NCBI RefSeq assembly: GCF_005938655.1
Contig: NZ_VCQT01000025.1
Coordinates: 124,001 to 188,000, forward strand
Reading direction: 5' to 3'
From: Alloalcanivorax gelatiniphagus
Lineage (GTDB): Bacteria > Pseudomonadota > Gammaproteobacteria > Pseudomonadales > Alcanivoracaceae
DNA: 64,000 nt
Below are positions 46,468 through 59,501 of this stretch, piece by piece. Within the stretch, counting starts at the first letter, position 1, and the number at the start of each line of letters is the position of its first letter. Under the pieces are notes generated by a model. It saw only the letters and a list, made by a program, of their open reading frames with translations, was not told the DNA's origin and did not search any database. Made by a program: the position numbers and the translations under genes.

Positions 46468-47463
46468 TCACCGAACACCATCCAACGCCTCCACCCGACG
46501 CAGCTCCCCTTCATCGAACAGCCGCGTCCGCAACGCCTCCACCTGGGCGTCCCGGTCCGCCGGTGCCAGGCCGCTGTCCAGAATCGCCCGGCGCTGCTCG
46601 CGGTATTCACGGTAACGGCGCTCCCATTCCGCCTGTTGCCGGTCCAGAGCCGCCAGCCGCTCCGCGGCCTCCGCCCCCAGCTCCCGCTCGCGCAACTGAT
46701 AGACGCGCGAATCCGACGCCCCTTGCTGGCGCAGGGCCGCCACCTGGGAGGCCACCTCCACGGGCTGCCGCGACGCCGCCACCATGTCACGCATATGCTC
46801 CGGCAGGGAGGCTTCCAGCTCGGCGATGCGGGCCGCCTTCTGGTCCGCGTCCAGCCCTTGGTTTTCCAGGATTTTCCGGCGCGCCAGGGCGAACTGGTCA
46901 TAACGGTCGCGGAAGCCGAAAAACGCCTCCCGGGTGGTGGCGTCGAACCACTGGGCGCGCAACGCCTGGCGTTGCTCCAGGCTACGCCGCAGTGACTCCG
47001 GTTCCCGGTTCGGCTCCTCCAGCTGGCGCAGCGCCGCCCGATAACCGATGTATTGCTCGAACAGCGCCCAGGCCTGGTGCGCCGCCTTATCCGGCAGCGC
47101 CTGGGCCAGATGGGCGGCCAGCCGGGCGCGCAGCACGTTCAGGTCTTCCTCGCCGAGGGCGGAAAGAAAATAGTCGAATCGCCGCCGCACCCCTTCGCTG
47201 ACCACCAGGTCGCCGTTGTCGTCGTGGCGCAGTTCACCGTCCGGCACCGTGCCCCGCCAGGACGCGGGGGTCTCTTTCAGTTTCTCGCCGCGTGCCACGA
47301 AGGTATCGAAATCATTGCCCTGGCTGTCCGCCCTCACCGGACTTTTTGGTGCAGAAGTGGGCGTCACGGACGGCCTGTCGTCGTCGCCGGAGAATGGCGC
47401 CAGCGTCCAGGCCAATACCGCCAAAGCCAGCAAAATCAGTAGTCCCGGGAGCCATACCCGCAT
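46468..47463 (-). CDS. lifO: Lipase-specific foldase (lipase chaperone)
   Basis: A 331-aa membrane-anchored periplasmic chaperone that folds the divergent lipase before secretion. It has an N-terminal anchor helix (MRVWLPGLLILLALAVLAW), a Pro/Ser-rich linker, the Lif signature RRRFDYFLSALGEED (RxxFDY(F/C)L(S/T)A) and a long helical arm. The ATG at 47463 has AAGGAG 7 nt upstream; earlier in-frame ATGs are rejected. Its 3' end lies in copy 2 of the tandem duplication, the last codons being intact. Confidence 0.95.
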   Translation of the reverse strand: MRVWLPGLLILLALAVLAWTLAPFSGDDDRPSVTPTSAPKSPVRADSQGNDFDTFVARGEKLKETPASWRGTVPDGELRHDDNGDLVVSEGVRRRFDYFLSALGEEDLNVLRARLAAHLAQALPDKAAHQAWALFEQYIGYRAALRQLEEPNREPESLRRSLEQRQALRAQWFDATTREAFFGFRDRYDQFALARRKILENQGLDADQKAARIAELEASLPEHMRDMVAASRQPVEVASQVAALRQQGASDSRVYQLRERELGAEAAERLAALDRQQAEWERRYREYREQRRAILDSGLAPADRDAQVEALRTRLFDEGELRRVEALDGVR

Positions 47464-47642
47464 CCATGTTCTCCTTATTGTCCATCCCTGTTCACCGACC
47501 ATTAATCGGATTACTACTTTTTTATTAATGAAATCCAATGGACAGCCGAATTAGGCTGTTTGCACGCCCGGTCAATGGCCGGGAGTTTCCCAATAGGACA
47601 TTGGCAAGAAATACATTTCAACAACAACGACCAGGGAAGCTT

Positions 47643-48566
47643 ATGAAAATCGTCATTCACGCGCTGCTGGGCGCCCTGCTTCTGCTCGGCCTGAGCGGCC
47701 CCGCCACCGCCGGCTACACCGAGACCCGCCACCCCATCGTGCTGGTGCATGGCCTGTTCGGTTTCGACACCGCCGCCGGCGTCGATTACTGGTACCGGAT
47801 TCCCGAAGAACTGCGCCGCAGCGGCGCCCAGGTGTACGTGGCCCAGGTCAGTGCCGCCGAGGACACCGTGGTGCGCGGCGAACAGCTGGCCCGCCAGGTG
47901 GAAACCATCCTCGCCAGCACCGGCGCCGACAGCGTCAACCTGATCGGCCACAGCCACGGCGGGCCCACCATCCGTTACGTGGCCTCGGTGTATCCGCAGT
48001 ATGTGAGTTCGGTGACCAGCGTGGGCGGCGTCAACTGGGGCGCCCGGCTGGCGGACGTGCTGCAGGGCGTGGCCGACAATGTGCCCTTCTCCGGCAACCT
48101 GATCGCCTACCTGGGCAATTCCCTGGCCGGTCTTATCGACCTGTTCAGCAGCGGTGGCAACGAACAGGACATCCTGGCCGCGCTCAAGGCGCTGACCACC
48201 GCCGAGACCGTGGCGTTCAACCAGCAGTATCCGGAAGGGGTACCGGCACGGTACTGCGGCGATGCCCCACGGGTGGCATCCAACGGCATTTCCTACTTCT
48301 CCTGGAGTGGCGCCAAGCCGCTCACCAACGTCCTGGACCCGTCCGACGTGTTGCTCGGCGCCACCTCCATCGTCTTTCTCGGCGAGCCCAACGATGGCCT
48401 GGTGAGCAGCTGCTCCAGCCACCTGGGCATGGTGATCCGCGACGACTACCGCATGAACCACCTGGACGAGGTGAACCAGGTTCTCGGGCTGCACGACCTG
48501 TGGAGCACCGACCCGGTGACCCTCTATCGCCAGCAGGCGAACCGGCTCAAGAACTACAATTTCTGA
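47643..48566 (+). CDS. lipA: Secreted triacylglycerol lipase, family I.1
   Basis: A 307-aa lipase with signal peptide (cleavage ATA-GYT, mature from Gly24). The catalytic Ser104 is in GHSHGG, the Asp in EPNDGLV and the His in RMNHLDEVNQVLGL. A disulfide is expected between the Cys in ARYCGD and in SSCSSH. It closely resembles Pseudomonas aeruginosa LipA, which needs a Lif foldase and type II secretion. It is divergent from lifO, an inverted arrangement compared with the usual lipA-lif operon. Confidence 0.96.
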   Translation: MKIVIHALLGALLLLGLSGPATAGYTETRHPIVLVHGLFGFDTAAGVDYWYRIPEELRRSGAQVYVAQVSAAEDTVVRGEQLARQVETILASTGADSVNLIGHSHGGPTIRYVASVYPQYVSSVTSVGGVNWGARLADVLQGVADNVPFSGNLIAYLGNSLAGLIDLFSSGGNEQDILAALKALTTAETVAFNQQYPEGVPARYCGDAPRVASNGISYFSWSGAKPLTNVLDPSDVLLGATSIVFLGEPNDGLVSSCSSHLGMVIRDDYRMNHLDEVNQVLGLHDLWSTDPVTLYRQQANRLKNYNF

Positions 48567-49690: not shown

Positions 49691-52600
49691 TTAGCCGCCC
49701 GCCTCCACTGGCGCCGGACGGGCCCGTCCCGCCCGGCGCAGATCCTGGCCCGCCACCAGCAGACACGGCACCAGCAGCAGGCTGACCAGGGTGGCGAACA
49801 GCACCCCGAACGCCAGCGCCACCGCCATGGGAATCAGGAAGCGTGCCTGGGCGCTGGTCTCCAGCATCAGCGGCGCCACCCCGGCGAAGGTGGTCAGCGA
49901 GGTCAGCAGAATCGGCCGCAACCGTTCGCTGGCGCCCTCCACCACCGCATCCATGAACGGCAGCCCCTCCTCACGACGGGCATTGATGCCATCGATCAGC
50001 ACCAGGTTATCGTTGACCACCACCCCGCTCACCGCGATCACCCCCACCAGGGACCACAGGGTCAGGCTGTAGCCGAGCAGGAAGTGACCCAGGAACGCGC
50101 CCACCAGACCGAACGGAATCGCCATCATCACCAGCAGCGGCTGACCATAGCCGCCGAACAGCACGGTGAGCAGGAAGAAGATGCAGCACAGCGCCAGCAA
50201 ATAGCCCAGGGACAGGCGGTCCAGGAACCGTTCTATGGCGGCCGGCTTGCCGGCCACGTCCCAGTCCGCACTGGGGTCCTCGGCGCGCATCGGGTCCAGC
50301 ACCGAGGCGCGCAGCGCCGCCATCACCCGGGCCGGTGAGGTCACCTTCTCGTCCACATAGGCACTGACCGTGGCATTGCGGCGGGTGTCGTAGTGGCCGA
50401 TGGTGGCCGGCGACGGGTGCCGGTGCACTTCCGCCACCGCCCCCAGCAGGGTCACATCGCCGTTGGGCAGACGCACCGGCAGACGCTCCAGGTCCCGCAG
50501 CCGGCGGCTGTCCGCCTCCGCCAGGCGCAGCATCACCGGCACCTCCCGGTCCTGCTCGAACCAGTGATCCAACTGCACGCCATGGAAGGCATCGCGCACC
50601 TGCGCCCCCAGCCGTTCGGTATCCAACCCGGCCAGCCGCCCTTCCTCGCGCAGCTCGATGTCCACCACCGTGCGCCGGGCGCGGGTGCTGTTGGCCACCT
50701 CGTGGACCCCGTTCATGCGTTCCAGGGTCAGCGCCAGCCGGTCACTGAGGGCCTGCAGCCGCTCCAGGTCCGGGTGGAACAGATTGATATGGATGTCCGG
50801 CTTCACGGTCATCAGGTTGGCGTGGAACTTCAACGACAGGGCGTCCGGCACGGTGCCGTGCAGGTCCCGCCACAGCGCCGCCACCCGCCGTGGCCGCAGG
50901 GCGCTGCCCTGGTCATGCTCCAGGGCCAGGCTCACCCGCACCCGGTAGCGGGCACCGGGGTCGCGGGCATTGGACACCTTGCGGCGCACCCCCTGTTCGG
51001 CGAACACCCGGGTCACCCGCATGCCGCTGTCGCCGTCCGCCAGATCCGCCGCCAGGCGCCGGGCGGACTCCTCCAGGGCCGTCACTTCCCGGCGCAGGCG
51101 CTCCTCGCCGGTGCCCTGGGGAAACACCGCCTCGGCCACCACCCGGTCGCCCTGCACCCGGGAGAACAGCACCATGGTCAGCCAGCCGCTGTGCACCAGC
51201 GCCACGCAAAACAGAAACAGGCCCACGAAGCCCAGGATCACCACATAGCGCCAGCGCAGGCAGGCGCGCAGCAGCGGCTGCACCTGGCGGCTCAGCCACA
51301 GTTCCAGGCCATCGTTGACCCGTCCGGCCAGGGCCTCGGAGCGAGCTATCCAGCCCCGCGCCGGCCGCTGGCTGACCAGGTGGGCGGGCAGGATCCACAG
51401 CGACTCCACCAGCGACAGCAGCAGAATGGCGATGGCGACAATCGGGATCACCCGCATCAGGGCGCCTTCCGGGCCCGGCAGAAACAGCAGCGGCGCGAAC
51501 GCCACCAGGGTGGTGAGCACCGCGAACAGCAACGGCCGCGCCACCCGCAGGGCACCGGTCACCGCCGCCTCCCGGCCGTGCAGGCCCTGGCGGCGGCAGC
51601 GGTCCACGCTTTCGCCGACGATCACCGCGTCGTCCACCACGATGCCCAGCACCAGCATGAAGGCAAACAGGGAGATGGTATTGAAGGACTCGCCCAGCAG
51701 CGGCAACACCGCGCAGGCGCCCAGCATGCACACCGGAATGCCCAGCGCCACCCAGCCGGCCAGTCGCAGGGTCAGAAACACCCCCAGCAGCAGGGTCAGT
51801 AGCACCAGCCCCTGCAGGCCATTACGCCATAGCAAATCGGAACGGTCGCGGAACTGGCGGGCATCGTCCCGCCACAGGGTCAGGCTCACGCCGGCGGGCA
51901 GGTCGGCGCTGTCCATCCAGGTATTCACCGCCTTGGCCACATCCAGCACGTTCTGGCCACCGGTGCGGTACACGTCCAGGGCCACCGCCGGCTCGCCGTC
52001 CAGCCAGGCCGCCATGGTGTCCCGGGAAAAGCCGTCGTCGATGGTGGCCACATCGCCCAGGCGCAGCAGGTCGCCGTCCTCGGACTGGCGGATCACCAGG
52101 CGGCCGTAAGCGGCCGCGTCCCGGGGCTGGTTACCGGTTTCCAGCATCCATTCGCCGTCGCCGGCGCGCAGCAGCCCGCCGGCCACCCGGCGGGCGCCAT
52201 CGCCGGCGGCGGCGGCGATTTCACTCAGGCTCAGGTCGTAGCGGTAAAGGTCGTCGCGGCGCACCGAAGCCACCATCTCCCGGGCCGGCAGGTTCTCGAT
52301 GTCGACGCTGGACACCGCCTCCCCGGCCAGCAATTGCCGGCGGGCGTCCTGGGCCAGCCGGTACAGGTCGGCGCGGGGCACGTTGCCGCTGAGCAGCAGC
52401 CGGGCCACCCGGTTACGCACGATCAACTCACGCACCCGGGGCCGGCTGGCGCCCTGGGGCAAGGTGTCCAGGGCGTCCATGCGGGTGCGGATCTGCTCCA
52501 GCACCCGGGCGGTGTCGTAGCCTTCCAGCACATCCAGCTGCACCGTGCACAGCCCTTCCCGGGCCTCGCTGATCAGCTCGGTGCCGCCTTCCACGTCGTC

Positions 52601-52816
52601 CACCGCGTTTTCCAGCGGCGTGCACACCAGCGCTTCCACGGTTTCCGGGGTGGCCTGCGGGTAACCCACATAGATGCCGATGCGGTCCAGGGGCACGTTG
52701 GGCAGGGTTTCCTGGCGGGTATGGGGAATCGCCAGCGCCCCGGCCAGCAGCAACCCCACCATCAGCAGATTGGCCACCGCCGGGTTGGCGGTGAACCAGC
52801 GGATACCGCCGTTCAT
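49691..52816 (-). CDS. RND-superfamily efflux permease
   Basis: A 1041-aa inner-membrane proton-driven pump of the AcrB/HAE1-like type: one N-terminal helix, a large periplasmic domain, helices 2-6 (about 340-470), a second periplasmic domain, and helices 8-12. The proton-relay Asp395-Asp396 lie in VLGIVVDDAVIVGE. Its ATG overlaps the adaptor-gene stop (ATGA). No outer-membrane factor gene is present, so it probably uses a chromosomal TolC/OprM-like channel. Clustered with acyl-transfer enzymes, so the likely cargo is their product (inference). Confidence 0.93.
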   Translation of the reverse strand: MNGGIRWFTANPAVANLLMVGLLLAGALAIPHTRQETLPNVPLDRIGIYVGYPQATPETVEALVCTPLENAVDDVEGGTELISEAREGLCTVQLDVLEGYDTARVLEQIRTRMDALDTLPQGASRPRVRELIVRNRVARLLLSGNVPRADLYRLAQDARRQLLAGEAVSSVDIENLPAREMVASVRRDDLYRYDLSLSEIAAAAGDGARRVAGGLLRAGDGEWMLETGNQPRDAAAYGRLVIRQSEDGDLLRLGDVATIDDGFSRDTMAAWLDGEPAVALDVYRTGGQNVLDVAKAVNTWMDSADLPAGVSLTLWRDDARQFRDRSDLLWRNGLQGLVLLTLLLGVFLTLRLAGWVALGIPVCMLGACAVLPLLGESFNTISLFAFMLVLGIVVDDAVIVGESVDRCRRQGLHGREAAVTGALRVARPLLFAVLTTLVAFAPLLFLPGPEGALMRVIPIVAIAILLLSLVESLWILPAHLVSQRPARGWIARSEALAGRVNDGLELWLSRQVQPLLRACLRWRYVVILGFVGLFLFCVALVHSGWLTMVLFSRVQGDRVVAEAVFPQGTGEERLRREVTALEESARRLAADLADGDSGMRVTRVFAEQGVRRKVSNARDPGARYRVRVSLALEHDQGSALRPRRVAALWRDLHGTVPDALSLKFHANLMTVKPDIHINLFHPDLERLQALSDRLALTLERMNGVHEVANSTRARRTVVDIELREEGRLAGLDTERLGAQVRDAFHGVQLDHWFEQDREVPVMLRLAEADSRRLRDLERLPVRLPNGDVTLLGAVAEVHRHPSPATIGHYDTRRNATVSAYVDEKVTSPARVMAALRASVLDPMRAEDPSADWDVAGKPAAIERFLDRLSLGYLLALCCIFFLLTVLFGGYGQPLLVMMAIPFGLVGAFLGHFLLGYSLTLWSLVGVIAVSGVVVNDNLVLIDGINARREEGLPFMDAVVEGASERLRPILLTSLTTFAGVAPLMLETSAQARFLIPMAVALAFGVLFATLVSLLLVPCLLVAGQDLRRAGRARPAPVEAGG

Positions 52817-53982
52817 GGCGTCTCTCCGTCGGCCCGGGCGTCAGGGTGGGCGTCGGCGTGGGCCACGCCGTCGGCGGCGGTTCGCGGCGTAATCCGCATG
52901 CCTTCCAGCAGGTGGCGGCCGTCGGCCAGCACCAGCGGCTGCTCCGGCGCCTTTTCCACGTACAGGTGGTCGGCGTCGCTGTGCAGGATCGACACCGTCC
53001 GGCGATGCACGCGACCGTCCTCGTCCACCACCCAGACCGCCTCGTCACCGGCCCGCGCCGCCCGGGGCAGCACCGCCACCCCGCTCAGGGGCGGGCCGCG
53101 CAGCTCCGCGCTCACGAACACCCCGGGCTCCAGCGGCAGCGACTGCTCCTCGTTGTCCACCGCCACGATCAGGTAGGCCATGCGGTTACGGTTGACGCCG
53201 CCCTCCCGGCGCACCACCCGCGCCGGCCATTCACCATCGCGGCCGGCGAAGCGGCCCCGCAGGCGCACCTCCACCGGCGCCAGGCTGGCCGGGTCGCCGG
53301 GGTCGATGCCGAGCAGCGCCAGCCAGTCATCGCGCACCGGCAGACGCACCTCCACCGTGGCCAGGCCGTACAGCCGGGCCAGGGTCTGGCCGGCCTGCAG
53401 ATGCTGGCCGGTTTCCACCTTGACCGCTTCCAGGGCACCGTCGAACGGCGCCCGCAGGGTAGCCTGCTCGCGCTGACGGCGGGCCTCGCGCAAGCCGGCC
53501 CGGGCCGACGCCAGCCGGCCCTGGGCCTCCTGCAGCTGCGGCTCATGGCGGGCCAGCGGCGTGGAGGTGCTGTTGCGGCCCCGTGCCACGCTGGCCTGGG
53601 CGCGGGTGCGCGCCAGGTGCAATTGAGCGGTCTGCACATCGTTAAGACGGTGGGTCACCGCCAGATCGAAGGGCTCCGGGTCCAGGCGCAGCAGCACCTG
53701 GCCGGCGCTGACCCGGCCGCCGTCGGCCAGGGCCTGGTCGGCCTCCACCACCCGCCCGGACACTTCCATGCTCAGCGGAATATGCCGGCTGGCACGTACC
53801 CGCCCCTGGCTGTACACCGGTATCACGGTGTCGGCCCGCGTTGCCTCGCGCACCTCCAGGGCCAGCGGCGGCGGTGCCTCGGTGGGGGTGGGCGCCGCCG
53901 GCGGTACCGCGTAGAGCGCGCCCAGGGCGCCAGCGGTAACCAGCAGCACCACTACCGTTACGATCGGTCTGCCGATCCTCAT
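52813..53982 (-). CDS. RND efflux periplasmic adaptor (membrane fusion protein)
   Basis: A 389-aa adaptor with an N-terminal membrane anchor (PIVTVVVLLVTAGALGALY), a barrel/lipoyl half (VYSQGRVRASRHIPLSMEVS), an alpha-hairpin with repeats of QEAQGRLASARAGLREARRQ, the second lipoyl half (TLRAPFDGALEAVKVETGQH) and a beta-barrel domain. The ATG at 53982 overlaps the acyltransferase stop; the alternative ATG six bases earlier sits too close to GGAGG. It pairs with the RND pump. Confidence 0.92.
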   Translation of the reverse strand: MRIGRPIVTVVVLLVTAGALGALYAVPPAAPTPTEAPPPLALEVREATRADTVIPVYSQGRVRASRHIPLSMEVSGRVVEADQALADGGRVSAGQVLLRLDPEPFDLAVTHRLNDVQTAQLHLARTRAQASVARGRNSTSTPLARHEPQLQEAQGRLASARAGLREARRQREQATLRAPFDGALEAVKVETGQHLQAGQTLARLYGLATVEVRLPVRDDWLALLGIDPGDPASLAPVEVRLRGRFAGRDGEWPARVVRREGGVNRNRMAYLIVAVDNEEQSLPLEPGVFVSAELRGPPLSGVAVLPRAARAGDEAVWVVDEDGRVHRRTVSILHSDADHLYVEKAPEQPLVLADGRHLLEGMRITPRTAADGVAHADAHPDARADGETP

Positions 53983-54914
53983 CGCCATTCCTCCAGTCCG
54001 GACCGCCAGCACGCCAGGCACTCCTCGGCCCGGGCCCGGTCGGCGCCCAGCGACGGGTCCAGTTTCAGGGACAGAGTGAGCCGGCCATTGACGATCATCA
54101 CGCCGTTGGAGACCGGATGGTTGGGGCTGCCCGGGCCGCACAGGGTCACCAGCGCCCGGGAGGAGAAGCCGGCGGAACGCAGGTCCAGCCACCACTCGCC
54201 CAGGCTGGTGAACGAACCCAGGCTCGGCGTGCCTTTCAGAAAGCGGTCGCACAGCCAGTCCACGCCGCCCTGCCCCACCCAGCGTCCGACCCGGGCACCG
54301 TGCCAGAACAACCAGTGGCGCTGGGCGCGCAGGGCCCGGCGCACGGCCTGGTCCAGCACCGCCGGGTGGTCGTCCGGCGACACCGGCAAGTAGAAGCCAC
54401 TGGACAGGTTCATGTCGTCCCGGGGGCCGCTCACCGCCCCGCGCATATTCACCGGATACAGCCAACGGCCCGGCGCCGGCCGCCACACCAGGGTCTCCAT
54501 CACCGCCCGGTTAAGGGTGCTCAGCAATACCGAGTTCAACGACACCCCGGCGGCCTCCGCCCGGCGGCGCAGGGCATCGGTGGGCGCGCGGTCCAGCCAG
54601 TCGCTCACCAAGGTGTCCTCGCCGCTGCCGGAGAACAGGCGCCAGTCCGGTGCCGGCACCGGTGCCTCCCGCACCGGCCGCAGCCAGCGCCACCAGGGCG
54701 GCGGTCCGCTCTGACGGCTTACCGGCATGGTCGGCAGCGGCACCTGCCAACCGCGCAGCAAATGAAACAGGCCGCCGATGCCGTCGTGCTCCCGGTGGCG
54801 CACCGGAAACTCGAAACGCCGACCGGAACCCGGTTCCAGCACCGCGAAATGAATGGTGTCGTCGATACCGTGGCGCGCCCTCGCCCGGTACCACATGCCC
54901 AGATAATCGGTCAT
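53979..54914 (-). CDS. Condensation-superfamily acyltransferase-like protein
   Basis: A 311-aa protein starting MTDYLGMWYRARARHG. It shows HREHDG at residues 40-45, matching the HxxxDG catalytic motif of the CAT/condensation/WES-DGAT superfamily; LYPVNMRGAVSG; and VSNGVMIVNGRLTLSL, like the C-terminal structural motifs. It is shorter than wax-ester synthases (~450 aa) and the first His of HHxxxDG is Arg. It probably esterifies or amidates an acyl donor made by the neighbouring enzymes. Overlaps on both sides are ATGA. Confidence 0.65.
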   Translation of the reverse strand: MTDYLGMWYRARARHGIDDTIHFAVLEPGSGRRFEFPVRHREHDGIGGLFHLLRGWQVPLPTMPVSRQSGPPPWWRWLRPVREAPVPAPDWRLFSGSGEDTLVSDWLDRAPTDALRRRAEAAGVSLNSVLLSTLNRAVMETLVWRPAPGRWLYPVNMRGAVSGPRDDMNLSSGFYLPVSPDDHPAVLDQAVRRALRAQRHWLFWHGARVGRWVGQGGVDWLCDRFLKGTPSLGSFTSLGEWWLDLRSAGFSSRALVTLCGPGSPNHPVSNGVMIVNGRLTLSLKLDPSLGADRARAEECLACWRSGLEEWR

Positions 54915-55972
54915 AGCCGCGCCACGTCCACATAGGACAGCCGCCCGCTGTCCAGGTCGTCCCGGGGGTCGCCGTCGAAACTGACCAGGAAGTGGTCGCT
55001 GTACAGACATTGGCGCCGGTAGCGGGCCGGCACCCGGGCCAGCGGGTCATCGTTGAAGAAGCCGCACACCAGCGCGTCGTAGCGGCCATGGAACAGGGTC
55101 ACCGCCTGGTCCAGCAGGGCGCGCAACCAAAGCGGATCGTTGTCGGCCACCACCGCGGTGTGCAGGGTCAGGTAGGACAGGTAGCCCCCCGGCGGCGGCA
55201 AGCGGAAACCGCCGCGCACCCGGCTGTGCAGGTTGTACAACGGCCGCAGCCAGGCCAGCCCGCCCCGGTAATTCAGCACCCGGGTTTGCTTGATGTCCTT
55301 TTGATCCCAGAACCCCAGCAGCCCCACCAGTTGTTCACCGCGACAGGCCACCAGAAAGCCGGACGGGTCCAGGGTCTCGTAATAGGGAAAGAACTGTTTG
55401 CGGCGCCCTTCCCGGTGCAGCAACGACAACATGGCGGGCAGATCCGCCGCCGTGGCCAGACGCACGGTGGCCCCCTCCGACGCCGGCCGGCGACGGCGCC
55501 CGGTGTAGATCAGGCTGGTCTCGATGGTGCCGCTCGGGTAGTACACCGGCAATCCTGCCCGGCCGCTGGCCACGGTGGCCAGAGAGGTATGGTTGTCACG
55601 CAGAATCACCGTGTGCATCCACTCCCCCGCCGTCAGTCGCCGGCGCAGGTGCCGGAACAAGCGGTGCAGCAGCAAGCCATTGCGGCAGCGCGGGTCGATG
55701 CGCAGATCATGGGCATAGCGGACCCGTTGCACCTCGCCGTTCACCCACAGGCGCCGCCAGCCAATGTTGTACACCGCGTCCACCTGTTCCCCGGCGTCCC
55801 CGGGGCAGGCCACCCAGACGTCCGGTTCCTCGCAGCTGACCCGCGCGCCCCGGAAATAGTCCGGGCGGCGCTCGAAGTTGAGCGACACCGCGCCCTCCTG
55901 GGGGGTGCTCTCCAACAACGCCAGGATCGCCGCGTTGTCGTCCGGGTGGGCCGGGCGAATCCGGTGACTCAT
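54911..55972 (-). CDS. Tandem GNAT-like acyltransferase
   Basis: A 353-aa protein starting MSHRIRPAHPDDNAAILALL, a typical GNAT beginning. A first GNAT-like half (1-175) contains RYAHDLRIDPRCRNGLLLHR, close to an acetyl-CoA binding loop. A second half begins ATVRLATAADLPAMLSLLHR (about 190) and ends in the Tyr-rich C-terminus. The substrate is unknown. It overlaps GH3 and the next acyltransferase (ATGA both), so stoichiometric production is expected. Confidence 0.72.
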   Translation of the reverse strand: MSHRIRPAHPDDNAAILALLESTPQEGAVSLNFERRPDYFRGARVSCEEPDVWVACPGDAGEQVDAVYNIGWRRLWVNGEVQRVRYAHDLRIDPRCRNGLLLHRLFRHLRRRLTAGEWMHTVILRDNHTSLATVASGRAGLPVYYPSGTIETSLIYTGRRRRPASEGATVRLATAADLPAMLSLLHREGRRKQFFPYYETLDPSGFLVACRGEQLVGLLGFWDQKDIKQTRVLNYRGGLAWLRPLYNLHSRVRGGFRLPPPGGYLSYLTLHTAVVADNDPLWLRALLDQAVTLFHGRYDALVCGFFNDDPLARVPARYRRQCLYSDHFLVSFDGDPRDDLDSGRLSYVDVARL

Positions 55973-57582
55973 GACAGCGCCTCGACACCGGCCGCCGGCG
56001 CCCGCAACGAGGCCGGCAACTCGCCACGCCAATGCTGCAGGGTCTCCATCTTGATATTGCCCTCGATCATGCCGCGCCGCCGGCATTGCTCCAGGTAGAG
56101 GTCACGCATGCCCGGCCGCGCCAGGCAGCGCACCGGCGCCAACTGCTGGAGATTGCGCGCCAACTGATAGTGGAAGTTGGCCTGCAGGGCCTGCTCCAGA
56201 ATGCCACCCAGCTCCGCCGGCGAACCGTCGCCGTCGCCATCCAGCAACAGCACATAACCGGGCCGCCCGTCGCCGCTGTCGTCCAGCGCCACCACGCTCA
56301 CCGGCGCCAGGCCGGCGGGCACCGGCACCGCCTCCAGGGCCCGGTGCACCGCCTGGCCGGTGAGCTTTTCGCCCACCAGGTCGGTGCTGCCCAGGCGGCC
56401 CAGGAAGCTGAGCGCGGGCACCTGGCCCAGGTGACCCTCCACGCGCACCAGATCATTGAGCCGGTAACGCAGCAGGCCGGCGCCGGTGCTCATCAGCGGC
56501 ATCACCCGCTGGCCGGTGCGCAGCTCCCAGGGGGCATAGACCCGGTCGTCCTCCGGGTCCTGGAATTCATAGACATGGCTGCGGTAGGCCAGCAAATGGT
56601 GGTCACGGTAGGGGAAGGTCACTACCCCCTCGGTGGCCCACAGCCCCTTGCCCTGAAAGGCCGCCTGGGGCAGACGTTCGCTGAGACGCCGCGCCCAGGG
56701 CGCCGAGGCGGAGGTGTCCCAGGCGCTGACCACCGCCAGCCCCGGCCAGAGACGGGTGAAGAACTCCGGGTCCTGGCCATCCCAGGCACTCAACAAGGCG
56801 GCACCGCGGGCCGAGCGCGGGCAGCGCTGGCCGGCCATGGCGGCGCTGCGTGGCCCCCAGTCGCCGGCGCGCAGTGCCCGGGCCAGCTCTTCCCGCCAGG
56901 TGGCCAGGGCGTCCAGCAGCCCCAGCCCGAAGGTGGGGCTCCACACCGACAGCAGGCTCAGGGAGCGGTCCGCCACCAGATACGCCAGGGTGGCGAACAG
57001 GGAATCATCGGAGCTGCGCGCCAGCGATACCGTCTGCGGCACGCTCTGGGTGGCGCCGGCCAGCAGCCGCTTGCCCAGGGACATCAGCTGCAGGTCGTCG
57101 TTGACGTCCTCGCGCATGGAATCGCGCAATTCCGTGGGCATCCACGACATGGACCAGTAATGGCCGCCCCGGCGCAGCCGGGGGTGGGCCCGGTACAGAT
57201 CCGCGATCCAGGGGCTGATGGCGGCGTCCAGTTCGGCCAGGAAACGTTTGCTGTAGGGAATCCACTTGATCGCCGAGGTGGAACCGCTGGTGGGCTGGTA
57301 ACGCACCACCGGCGAATCGATCAGGGCGCCGCCCTGGCCGGCGCGGGCCTCCTCGATGGGCGCCCGCCAGTGCTCGTAATCGGTGACCGGCAGGCGATCA
57401 CGGAAGGTCTCCCAGCTCCAGTCCGGCCGCACGCCCAGGCGCCGGCCACTGTCCGAAGCGGCCACCAGGCCGACCAGCTCCGCCAGCTTCTGCCGCTGCA
57501 CCCGCTCCAGCTGACGCAGCCCGGCGGCGAAACGCCGGTGCCCGGGCGCCGCCGCCGCTTGCAACAAACGATGTCCCAGCAT
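55969..57582 (-). CDS. GH3-family acyl-adenylating enzyme
   Basis: A 537-aa protein of the GH3 (JAR1-like) family, which in plants adenylates an acyl acid and joins it to an amino acid. The ATP motif is QPTSGSTSAIKWIPYS (residues 96-111); further landmarks are AWDTSASAPWARRL, LWATEGVVTFPYRDHHLLAY, VMPLMSTGAGLLRYRLNDLV and LGSTDLVGEKLT. ATG at 57582 has GGAGG 5 nt upstream. In bacteria, GH3-type enzymes occur in poorly characterised acyl-conjugation clusters. Acyl and acceptor substrates cannot be read from the sequence. Confidence 0.88.
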   Translation of the reverse strand: MLGHRLLQAAAAPGHRRFAAGLRQLERVQRQKLAELVGLVAASDSGRRLGVRPDWSWETFRDRLPVTDYEHWRAPIEEARAGQGGALIDSPVVRYQPTSGSTSAIKWIPYSKRFLAELDAAISPWIADLYRAHPRLRRGGHYWSMSWMPTELRDSMREDVNDDLQLMSLGKRLLAGATQSVPQTVSLARSSDDSLFATLAYLVADRSLSLLSVWSPTFGLGLLDALATWREELARALRAGDWGPRSAAMAGQRCPRSARGAALLSAWDGQDPEFFTRLWPGLAVVSAWDTSASAPWARRLSERLPQAAFQGKGLWATEGVVTFPYRDHHLLAYRSHVYEFQDPEDDRVYAPWELRTGQRVMPLMSTGAGLLRYRLNDLVRVEGHLGQVPALSFLGRLGSTDLVGEKLTGQAVHRALEAVPVPAGLAPVSVVALDDSGDGRPGYVLLLDGDGDGSPAELGGILEQALQANFHYQLARNLQQLAPVRCLARPGMRDLYLEQCRRRGMIEGNIKMETLQHWRGELPASLRAPAAGVEALS

Positions 57583-57594
57583 GGCCACCTCCGC

Positions 57595-58368
57595 TCAATC
57601 GTAGGCGACGGAGCGCGTCGCCAGCGTCGAGGACCGGCGGCGCTTGCGCCACACGTCGAGGGGATAACGCAGCAGAAGATGGGCATCCACCAAACCGATG
57701 CAGGGTAACTCGGTGCCCCGTTCCCAGGACGGATTGCACTGCTCGAAGAAGCGGATTTTGGCATTTTTTTCGCGCATCTCCTTGGTGATCATCGCCACGT
57801 CCTGCTTCAGGTGCGTGTAGCCATTACCGAAGTCCAGCAGCCGGCGCTGATCGCAGAAGGAGTCCGGAAAAAGAGTGTGGCAATAATTCGCCACATAATC
57901 CGCAAGATGATCGCAACGGCCTTCCGGGTGCGGATAATAGCTATAAAAATTATTGGCCAAGAGCAGATAGGTTTTGTAGCCCTTGGAAATCAACAACCAG
58001 TACAAAGGTCGGTACGGTCGTTTCAGTTTTTCCTTCACCATGCGCAGGAAAAATTGCACCTGAAGAACACGGGTGCCCCAGAATTCCTTTTCGATGATGG
58101 TGTCGCCGCTGAATACACCGGTTACCGTTTTTCCACCCACTTCCATATCCAGTACTTTTAGTGTGGAAAAGCCCACGGTGCGACGGCTTTCACGCTCCTG
58201 AATGAGAAAAACGCCATTTTTCTCAACCATGTCCTTGCAAAAAAGATCAACGCTGATGTTCTCGTAGTAGCGCCGGTAAAGATCGTACATCCGCAGCATC
58301 TGATCCACGGAAACCTTTGAAATAGGCACGTAGCGCGCTTTCAGGCGCGCTTTCTTTTTACTGGCCAT
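57595..58368 (-). CDS. Unrecognised 257-aa protein, possibly GNAT-like
   Basis: It starts MASKKKARLKARYVPISK after GGAGGG. Predicted mixed alpha/beta: KVSVDQMLRMYDLYRRYYEN, GVFLIQERESRRTVGFSTLK (beta-hairpin, like the GNAT core), then a hydrophobic WLLISKGYKTYLLLANNFYS region. I do not recognise the family with certainty; the pattern resembles acyl-CoA N-acyltransferases. It is less GC-rich than its neighbours, and it is the first gene of the operon, 13 bp before GH3. Confidence 0.55.
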   Translation of the reverse strand: MASKKKARLKARYVPISKVSVDQMLRMYDLYRRYYENISVDLFCKDMVEKNGVFLIQERESRRTVGFSTLKVLDMEVGGKTVTGVFSGDTIIEKEFWGTRVLQVQFFLRMVKEKLKRPYRPLYWLLISKGYKTYLLLANNFYSYYPHPEGRCDHLADYVANYCHTLFPDSFCDQRRLLDFGNGYTHLKQDVAMITKEMREKNAKIRFFEQCNPSWERGTELPCIGLVDAHLLLRYPLDVWRKRRRSSTLATRSVAYD

Positions 58369-58437
58369 GACTTCCCTCCATGTCATCCCGCTGACTTGTG
58401 GCGAGGGAAATTCTGTCTTCGCACCTGGAAATTTTTA

Positions 58438-58465
58438 ATAGTAAAAGTGGCCAGTTTTTTGTTAA
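58438..58465 (-). promoter_or_regulatory. Candidate sigma-70 promoter of the GH3/RND operon
   Basis: On the minus strand TTAACA, 16 bp, TACTAT, in an AT-rich stretch about 70 nt upstream of the first operon gene. The divergent AraC-type gene lies 80 bp away, so its product may bind here. Confidence 0.45.
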
Positions 58466-58544
58466 AAGGGGCAACCTCGCAAACAGATCGGGAAACAACG
58501 GACCGGAAGTGAGACCCACGTCATAATTAATCCAGGTGAAGAAT

Positions 58545-59501
58545 ATGGAAGGGACGACAAAGGACTGCTCGCACTTGCCCATGATCGCCGCGCGTTATGG
58601 ACGCCGGTTGATGCATTTTCTGCGGCAACGTCAGATCAGTGGTGACCTGGTACTGGCGGGGACCGGACTGGACCAGGAAATGCTCGATCATCCGGAGTGT
58701 TATTTAACCATTGAACAAGTGCGCCGCATTCTGGAACAAACCAAGCGATTGCTAGGTGATGAACTGGCACCGTTTCAGTTCGGCCAGTTGCTGGATCTGG
58801 AGGGTCACGGGCTGAGAGGTTTCACCGAACACAACAGCCGCGCCGACCGGCGCAGCCTGGCCGACACCATCGTGCACTACTTTCGCGTCACCCTGCCGAT
58901 CATGGACCTGCATCTCCATTGCGACGGGCATAGCGCCCGCATTCAACTGGTCGACACCTGGGAGCTGGGCTCCCTCCGTGAATTCGTTATCAAGATCTAC
59001 CTGGGCAGCATCCAATCACTGACCCGACCCTTCGGCGGCACCCGCGCCATCGAATTCGATTTCCCCACCACCTTGTGCGGCAGCCAATGGCGGACCGTGG
59101 CCCGGGGCGCGCCGATCCGCTTCGGCGGCACCTGCAACCAGGTGGTGCTGACGGTGGAGCCACCGGACATGGCCGATCAGGTGCTCGGCCGCGCCCGCGC
59201 ACGGATCACCGAGCACCCCGGCCGCGACAGTACCCTGCAGCGGGTCGCCCACCACCTGGGCATGAGCCCGCGCAGCCTGCGCCGTCATCTGGCGCTGGCC
59301 GGCTATTCCTTCAGTGAAATTCGCAATGAAGTGCGCCGCCAGTTCGCCACCCGCTACCTCACCGAAACCGGCGACTCCCTGGAGAGCATCGCGGACCGGT
59401 TGGGCTACAGCGATCAGGCCAGTTTCAGCAAGGCGTACCGATCCTGGACCGGACAGACCCCGGGCCAGGTGCGCCGCGCCGGGCGGCCCGACCGCGGCTG
59501 A
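58545..59501 (+). CDS. AraC-family transcriptional regulator
   Basis: A 318-aa regulator. The N-terminal ~220 residues match the AraC arabinose-binding-like domain 2 type (LTIEQVRRILEQTKRLLGDE; RGFTEHNSRADRRSL); the C-terminal two helix-turn-helix motifs are seen in VAHHLGMSPRSLRRHL and ESIADRLGYSDQASFSKAYR. The ATG at 58545 is preferred, with GTG at 58536 as alternative. Divergent from the GH3/RND operon, which it probably controls. Confidence 0.9.
   Translation: MEGTTKDCSHLPMIAARYGRRLMHFLRQRQISGDLVLAGTGLDQEMLDHPECYLTIEQVRRILEQTKRLLGDELAPFQFGQLLDLEGHGLRGFTEHNSRADRRSLADTIVHYFRVTLPIMDLHLHCDGHSARIQLVDTWELGSLREFVIKIYLGSIQSLTRPFGGTRAIEFDFPTTLCGSQWRTVARGAPIRFGGTCNQVVLTVEPPDMADQVLGRARARITEHPGRDSTLQRVAHHLGMSPRSLRRHLALAGYSFSEIRNEVRRQFATRYLTETGDSLESIADRLGYSDQASFSKAYRSWTGQTPGQVRRAGRPDRG

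Follow-up and report, generated by a model that had tools for sequence, protein, structure and literature searches.

The stretch of Alloalcanivorax gelatiniphagus DNA analyzed here (the window; 64,000 nucleotides of contig NZ_VCQT01000025.1) carries six consecutive genes, g1 to g6, on its reverse strand at positions 49691-58368, with a divergent regulator upstream. The operon is a real and widespread biosynthesis-and-export unit, built from known kinds of enzymes and apparently undescribed. The triad g1-GH3-g3 forms its conserved core; the full group of six does not. The features of the locus (window coordinates) are as follows.

57595-58368, minus strand: g1, GNAT-fold acyltransferase by predicted structure, of no named sequence family (257 amino acids)
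55969-57582, minus strand: g2, GH3 acyl-adenylating amido synthetase (537 amino acids; PF03321, PF23571 and PF23572 above cut-off)
54911-55972, minus strand: g3, tandem-GNAT acyltransferase with an N-myristoyltransferase (NMT)-type shape in the predicted structure (353 amino acids, ending ...VARL)
53979-54914, minus strand: g4, short condensation/PapA-like acyltransferase (311 amino acids; PapA_C below cut-off; HxxxDG motif at residue 40)
52813-53982, minus strand: g5, RND periplasmic adaptor (389 amino acids; TIGR01730, HlyD_3)
49691-52816, minus strand: g6, RND permease (1041 amino acids; ACR_tran)
58369-58535, no strand: presumed control region, the 167 bp that separate g1 from the divergently starting regulator, judged from gene positions
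58536-59501, plus strand: divergent AraC-family regulator with the PF12625 ligand domain (321 amino acids; HTH_18 and Arabinose_bd above cut-off)

All six genes and the regulator lie where the original prediction had placed them, and the ATGA couplings that it described from GH3 through the pump are present as four overlaps (g2/g3, TCATGAGT; g3/g4, CTATGACC; g4/g5, CGATGAGG; g5/g6, CCATGAAC). Its wording of six overlapping genes does not extend to the first junction: we think that GH3 starts at ATG 57582, which gives 537 residues and leaves g1 and GH3 without overlap. This codon is 12 nt past the g1 stop codon and 5 nt past a GGAGG, and its alignment column has methionine in 7 of 16 rows; the longest GH3 frame begins at GTG 57588.

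The GH3 identity of g2 was confirmed, with scores of 117.6, 44.7 and 30.8 bits for the N-terminal (PF03321), middle (PF23571) and C-terminal (PF23572) domains against cut-offs of 23.6; it is the single PF03321 match in the 4.2-Mb genome. The predicted adaptor and pump were likewise recovered (g5, TIGR01730, 124.5 bits vs. a cut-off of 94.9; g6, ACR_tran, 450.6 bits), as was the AraC-type regulator. The permease keeps the VDD sequence (VDDA at residue 394) and has no lysine in residues 901-980, which we take to be the place of the counterpart to AcrB Lys940. No outer-membrane factor of the OEP type was found by Pfam among the six operon proteins; many RND systems borrow TolC.

Conservation was examined within the family in a sample of 46 genomes, 35 of which have a GH3 match; one match is just an 86-residue piece, leaving 34 full-length genes including that of the window. 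In the 33 other full-length genomes, the surroundings of GH3 were scored. Both g1 and g3 are beside GH3 in 33/33 (g3 is partial at a contig end in L038), while g4 was found in 30/33 (missing in L059, L064 and, at the contig end, L038), an adaptor and RND pump in 32/33, and the divergent regulator in 28/33. The pump is 52-81% identical to that of the window in 28 genomes; loci L043, L044, L046 and L049 have a different adaptor/pump pair (30% and 34% identity, respectively) on the opposite strand. A full GH3 is missing from 12/46 genomes. One of these 12, G001, has an eroded operon (L066, 10058-10492), of which only the end of GH3 and 30 residues matching the regulator are left, between conserved AdeT-like and acyl-CoA dehydrogenase genes. 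Since both of these genes also flank the eroded site, they were rejected as operon members. A different GH3-containing cluster was seen in G039 (L065, 8992-18836), where a second, distant GH3 accompanies a phosphopantetheinyl transferase, an AMP-binding and carrier protein, an FAD-binding protein, an adaptor-like gene and an RND pump.

For the wider scan, we used a GH3 alignment to search one genome per species and kept the best 80 of 186 related stretches, several from genomes shared with the family set; the presence of g1, g3, g4 and exporters was counted with six-frame searches. The 80 loci come from Alcanivorax, Alloalcanivorax, Aquabacterium and other Burkholderiales, Marinobacter, Thalassolituus/Oleibacter, Pseudomonas, Moritella and Moraxellaceae, with single records of others that include one Myxococcota bin and one record labelled Pedobacter. 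The latter groups with Moraxellaceae on the GH3 tree and may be misbinned. Profiles of g1 and g3 each match in 79/80 loci, the misses (L145 and L120) being contigs that end there. GH3 motif 2 (ATEG) and motif 3 were found in 80/80 loci and motif 1 in 77/80 with a relaxed pattern (misses L101, the truncated L145, and L148) or 67/80 with a strict one; the enzyme aligns to plant GH3.5 around motifs 1 and 3, and its closest relative is that of Alcanivorax sp. UBA4485 (77%). Its membership in the acyl-acid-activating family is supported at the sequence level.

The genes of the triad also co-occur outside GH3-selected loci. In an even sample of 369 genomes from the class (the window’s genome included), PF03321 was found in 19, g1 in 9 and g3 in 8; 9/9 g1 genomes fall within the 19 GH3 genomes, and 8/8 g3 genomes fall within the 9 g1 genomes (naive hypergeometric P for co-occurrence, 2.9e-13 and 1.1e-15, with relatedness ignored). 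Contexts were scored for the 18 GH3 genes other than that of the window. The triad is contiguous in G302, G242 and G080; g3 is near GH3 on the other strand in G255, and ~2.7 kb away with genes between in G199 and G346 (in G346 with g1 on another contig). In G212, GH3-g3 and g1 are at the ends of two contigs, and in G046 the contig ends with another gene after g1-GH3, and g3 was not found. A phylum sample of 398 genomes, which partly overlaps the class sample, gave g1 in 6, with GH3 adjacent in 5/6 and g3 near in 4/6; the sixth (G728) is a weak match without GH3. The triad is therefore strongly linked but not inseparable. Chance grouping of the genes was rejected on family conservation, presence in the 80 loci and co-occurrence in the class sample. 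The expectation of conservation as a unit is supported, with the triad as the conserved core in place of all six genes.

In the 80 loci, up to 8.5 kb on the downstream side of GH3 was searched for exporters, the queries being representatives of each kind encountered; other kinds would escape such a search. One of four kinds was found in 56/80 loci: RND in the same direction (38) or the opposite direction (3), ABC-2 with an HlyD adaptor (12), MFS with an HlyD adaptor (2; Pseudomonas segetis and P. benzenivorans) and MMPL (1). The remaining 24 have no recognised exporter, 6 of them being cut by contig ends (L089, L093, L103, L120, L145 and L164). In L115, for example, the triad is directly followed by a conserved neighbor gene, which in L109 is a uroporphyrinogen decarboxylase. 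On the GH3 tree, a quick tree with long-branch warnings from which the contig-end-cut loci were left out for this count, the exporter state changes at least 9 times, with absence counted as a state. The pump is thus an exchangeable module (RND, ABC-2, MFS, MMPL), and the exporter kinds across the 80 loci rule out the RND pump as an obligatory part. In the one Acinetobacter baumannii record examined (L197, NZ_CP064203.1 1503729-1523186), a related form has the gene order HlyD, MFS, g1, GH3, outer-membrane efflux protein, g3, SurE-like. PLSDB has two A. baumannii entries of nearly 4 Mb as plasmids, which by their size look like chromosomes; both carry a triad-family GH3 (42% identical).

The assignment of g4 to the condensation superfamily is supported by motif, and its profile score is short of the threshold: HxxxDG is present in 22/22 aligned sequences, the window’s copy among them, while PapA_C reaches 24.4 bits against a cut-off of 30; the match to PapA5 (1q9j) has an E value of 0.005. 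A different, full-length condensation-like protein is encoded close by in 24 loci, with 27 proteins in all (L158 and the Aquabacterium-type loci), with HxxxDG in 27/27; the one scanned scored 18.1 bits for Pfam Condensation, below the cut-off. The g4 protein has 311 amino acids vs. 457-591 for the condensation-like proteins of Aquabacterium loci (called frames shown). In Moritella, g4 and the adaptor form one open frame in 3/3 loci (L149, L150 and L152). The frame in L149 (12920-15304) encodes 795 amino acids, with the adaptor domain confirmed at residues 584-634 in this locus, the one of the three whose domains were checked. This fusion is a natural link of acyl transfer to export. Together, the exporter counts, the changes on the tree, the Moritella fusion and the A. 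baumannii gene order indicate that the triad is tied to export in most, not all, of its hosts.

Both g1 and g3 are GNATs by predicted structure and not by sequence family, so that the prediction of a GNAT-like and a double-GNAT protein stands on the modelled folds. Pfam and NCBIfam gave no match for g1, and the sole Pfam match of g3 is below threshold (Acetyltransf_1, 15.8 bits vs. a cut-off of 20.7, in a search up to E = 1). Searches of PDB sequences with the g1 and g3 profiles gave best E values of 0.047 and 0.23, and PHROGs a single weak acetyltransferase match, for g3. The g1 fold matches FeeM no better than other GNATs, and the absence of a family from a fold list does not exclude that family. 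The GNATs could conceivably build an acyl-homoserine-lactone-like or chelating head group, the product then being a secreted signal or siderophore-like molecule, which we consider very unlikely.

The predicted structure of g3 has two GNAT domains in one chain and an overall fold like NMT, with which it aligns over its whole length at just 10-14% identity among the 50 matches listed. Residue 353, the last of the chain, pairs with residue 496 of human NMT1 in the fold alignment, and the chain end is fixed in 76/79 loci. An NMT-shaped tandem GNAT with a fixed C-terminus is the most surprising element of the operon. The shape and the fixed end would also suit a bacterial N-myristoyltransferase with a protein as its substrate for lipidation, with the other genes supplying or exporting acyl donors; g3 has, however, no match to the NMT Pfam family at E up to 1, and its confinement in the 369-genome sample to genomes with g1 and GH3 fits a pathway enzyme, making this explanation highly improbable.

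Distant triads have additional neighbors: a Rieske protein in L168; a fatty-acid desaturase, a SnoaL-like protein and a Rieske protein in L173 (309-11456); a desaturase and SnoaL in L193; and radical-SAM proteins in L177, L193 and L198. Those of L173, L168 and L193 perhaps constitute a second product class. A protein with NqrB-type and FG-GAP domains also lies near the L173 triad. Locus L198 is on an IncF-type plasmid of Citrobacter portucalensis (NZ_CP134684.1, 51417-63512), where the order is g1, GH3, two radical-SAM genes, g3, two radical-SAM genes, PAP2 phosphatase, radical-SAM, fatty-acid desaturase.

We propose, with a probability of slightly less than 0.6, that the product of the operon is a secreted acylated amide of the lipoamino-acid or lipo-amine type. 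In the order of steps that we infer, GH3 would activate a carboxylic acid as its adenylate, a fatty acid being the most likely one, and use it to acylate the amino group of an amino acid or amine. The single GNAT g1 and the NMT-type g3 might then each add another acyl group to nitrogen of this scaffold, drawing on acyl-CoA or acyl-ACP, with the C-terminal carboxylate of g3 as the likely base, and g4, where present, could add an ester- or amide-linked acyl group through its HxxxDG site. The adaptor and pump, or the replacement exporter, would move the product across the envelope, and expression may be gated by the AraC regulator, with the acid or the product as a possible signal. A fatty acyl group is suggested by OlsH (a bacterial GH3 discussed below), the likeness of g3 to NMT, a transferase of C14 acyl chains, the PapA-like g4, and the desaturase, SnoaL-like and Rieske or radical-SAM proteins of distant triads.

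Several observations weigh against this proposal. The g4 profile matches in 31/80 loci. Neither g1 nor g3 is present in 10/19 GH3 genomes of the class sample; in Burkholderia arboris (L199), g3 lies upstream of GH3 and g1 gave no match within 19 kb, L195 has g1 and GH3 without g3, and L196 has a weak g1 match without GH3. Activation, transfer and then export, as originally predicted, agrees with an acyl-acid-activating GH3 and with the exporter association, but of the 74 loci that no contig end truncates, 18 have no recognised exporter within the 8.5 kb downstream (16 of these 18 are Aquabacterium or other Burkholderiales; in L118 and L143, counted here, just ~4.2 and 7.8 kb downstream are visible). 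Foldseek places Eis-like and glucosamine acetyltransferase tandem GNATs level with NMT for g3, and fold similarity of g1 and g3 does not show function. For the operon’s own clade, a fatty acyl substrate is an extrapolation, the desaturase link coming from distant triads only. Finally, RND, MFS and ABC pumps may serve detoxification instead.

Such a detoxification route would conjugate and export: GH3 would join an amino acid to a toxic carboxylic acid of the aromatic or naphthenic kind that oil degraders encounter, the GNATs would acylate amines, the pump would remove the conjugate, and the regulator would sense the acid. Several host genera are hydrocarbon degraders, and drug exporters occur among RND, MFS and ABC-2 pumps. 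Plant GH3s conjugate indole-3-acetic acid and benzoates (judging by molecule names), and the double-GNAT fold is also that of mammalian glycine acyltransferases, according to the available part of PMC12219266. One conjugating enzyme would suffice for this purpose, vs. the three that co-occur here in addition to an HxxxDG acyltransferase, and the desaturases, Rieske and radical-SAM proteins of distant triads look biosynthetic. We consider detoxification unlikely.

More tentatively than the proposal of a secreted acylated amide, and at less than even odds, the triad may be a natural-product core (GH3, GNAT and an NMT-type tandem GNAT using its own C-terminal carboxylate as base) that builds a multiply acylated amide across several bacterial orders and is joined to whatever exporter is at hand. 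If so, the NMT-type enzymes of bacteria, so far reported as structures, would gain a pathway, and long-chain N-acylation of small molecules by an NMT-type fold would exist outside eukaryotes.

No described cluster with the operon’s gene composition was found in targeted searches of the open-access full-text literature, in agreement with the original prediction; subscription journals, MIBiG and antiSMASH were outside this search. The operon represents a compact and easily recognised class of gene cluster without a described product in the literature searched, hosted by Alcanivorax, Marinobacter, Thalassolituus, Aquabacterium, Pseudomonas and Moritella, with the related form in A. baumannii. It joins a plant-hormone-type ligase (GH3) to a protein shaped like NMT, an enzyme long thought confined to eukaryotes, and offers a genetic handle on the role that GH3 and NMT-type double-GNAT enzymes have in bacteria. 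A surface-active lipoamino acid as product might be relevant to oil handling by oil degraders; a detoxification conjugate would give bacteria a parallel to the conjugation of plant hormones.

Among known systems, FeeM-type N-acyl amino acid synthase clusters tie GNAT-fold N-acylation to a small biosynthetic cluster. They differ from the operon in that GH3 has 0 occurrences in the comparative-genomics paper on N-acyl tyrosine (PMC12479983). A link to the ArpAB pump of A. baumannii was rejected; the available part of its paper has 0 occurrences of GH3 and describes a divergent TetR regulator (PMC5387308). Eukaryotic NMT and the bacterial NMT-type double GNATs, as presented in the available parts of PMC7048800 and PMC12219266, resemble g3 in the tandem GNAT fold along its whole length and in the C-terminal residue pairing; the latter, a 2025 paper, reports the bacterial structures and, in that part, names no pathway. 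The low identity of g3 and its position outside the NMT sequence family set it apart. The mycobacterial sulfolipid system has a trehalose core and no HlyD-type adaptor, and its MmpL8 is a member of the RND superfamily. Like the operon, it combines an acyl-adenylate-forming enzyme, a PapA protein and a pump in one pathway (FadD23, PapA1 and MmpL8), but with FadD in place of GH3 and with the polyketide synthase Pks2, according to the available part of PMC9989471.

Among systems known from experiments, OlsH of Singulisphaera acidiphila comes closest; this GH3 uses ATP to join free fatty acid to ornithine, giving N-acyl-ornithine (available part of PMC12493201). GH3 lipid chemistry in bacteria is thus not itself new, and OlsH, together with the sulfolipid genes, would be compatible with an ornithine-lipid or related membrane aminolipid pathway, in which the pump transfers lipid to the outer membrane instead of secreting it. 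As proposed for the operon, a GH3 N-acylates an amino acid, there with ATP and a free fatty acid, and an acyltransferase follows; the second enzyme of OlsH/OlsI is, however, an alpha/beta-hydrolase, and no OlsI-type protein is among the six operon proteins. The window has a lipase-like alpha/beta-hydrolase gene (47538-48566, plus strand) outside the operon and on the opposite strand; it adjoins a lipase chaperone gene (PF03280, minus strand; both within 46468-48566), and the longest frames of the two share the same start base. In addition, overlapping OlsB-like and OlsA-like frames lie on contig 41 of the same genome (L185, 362-1989; best NCBIfam matches, below equivalog cut-offs). Ornithine lipid is probably made at that pair, which suggests that the operon makes something else and that ornithine is less likely as acceptor; we consider the aminolipid pathway quite unlikely. 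The text of PMC12493201 has 0 occurrences of GNAT, RND or Alcanivorax, and the ten proteobacterial sequences of the OlsH tree, in the part available, include none from the genera of the 80-locus scan. The same part suggests other N-acyl amino acids as products of other bacterial GH3s, which fits the operon.

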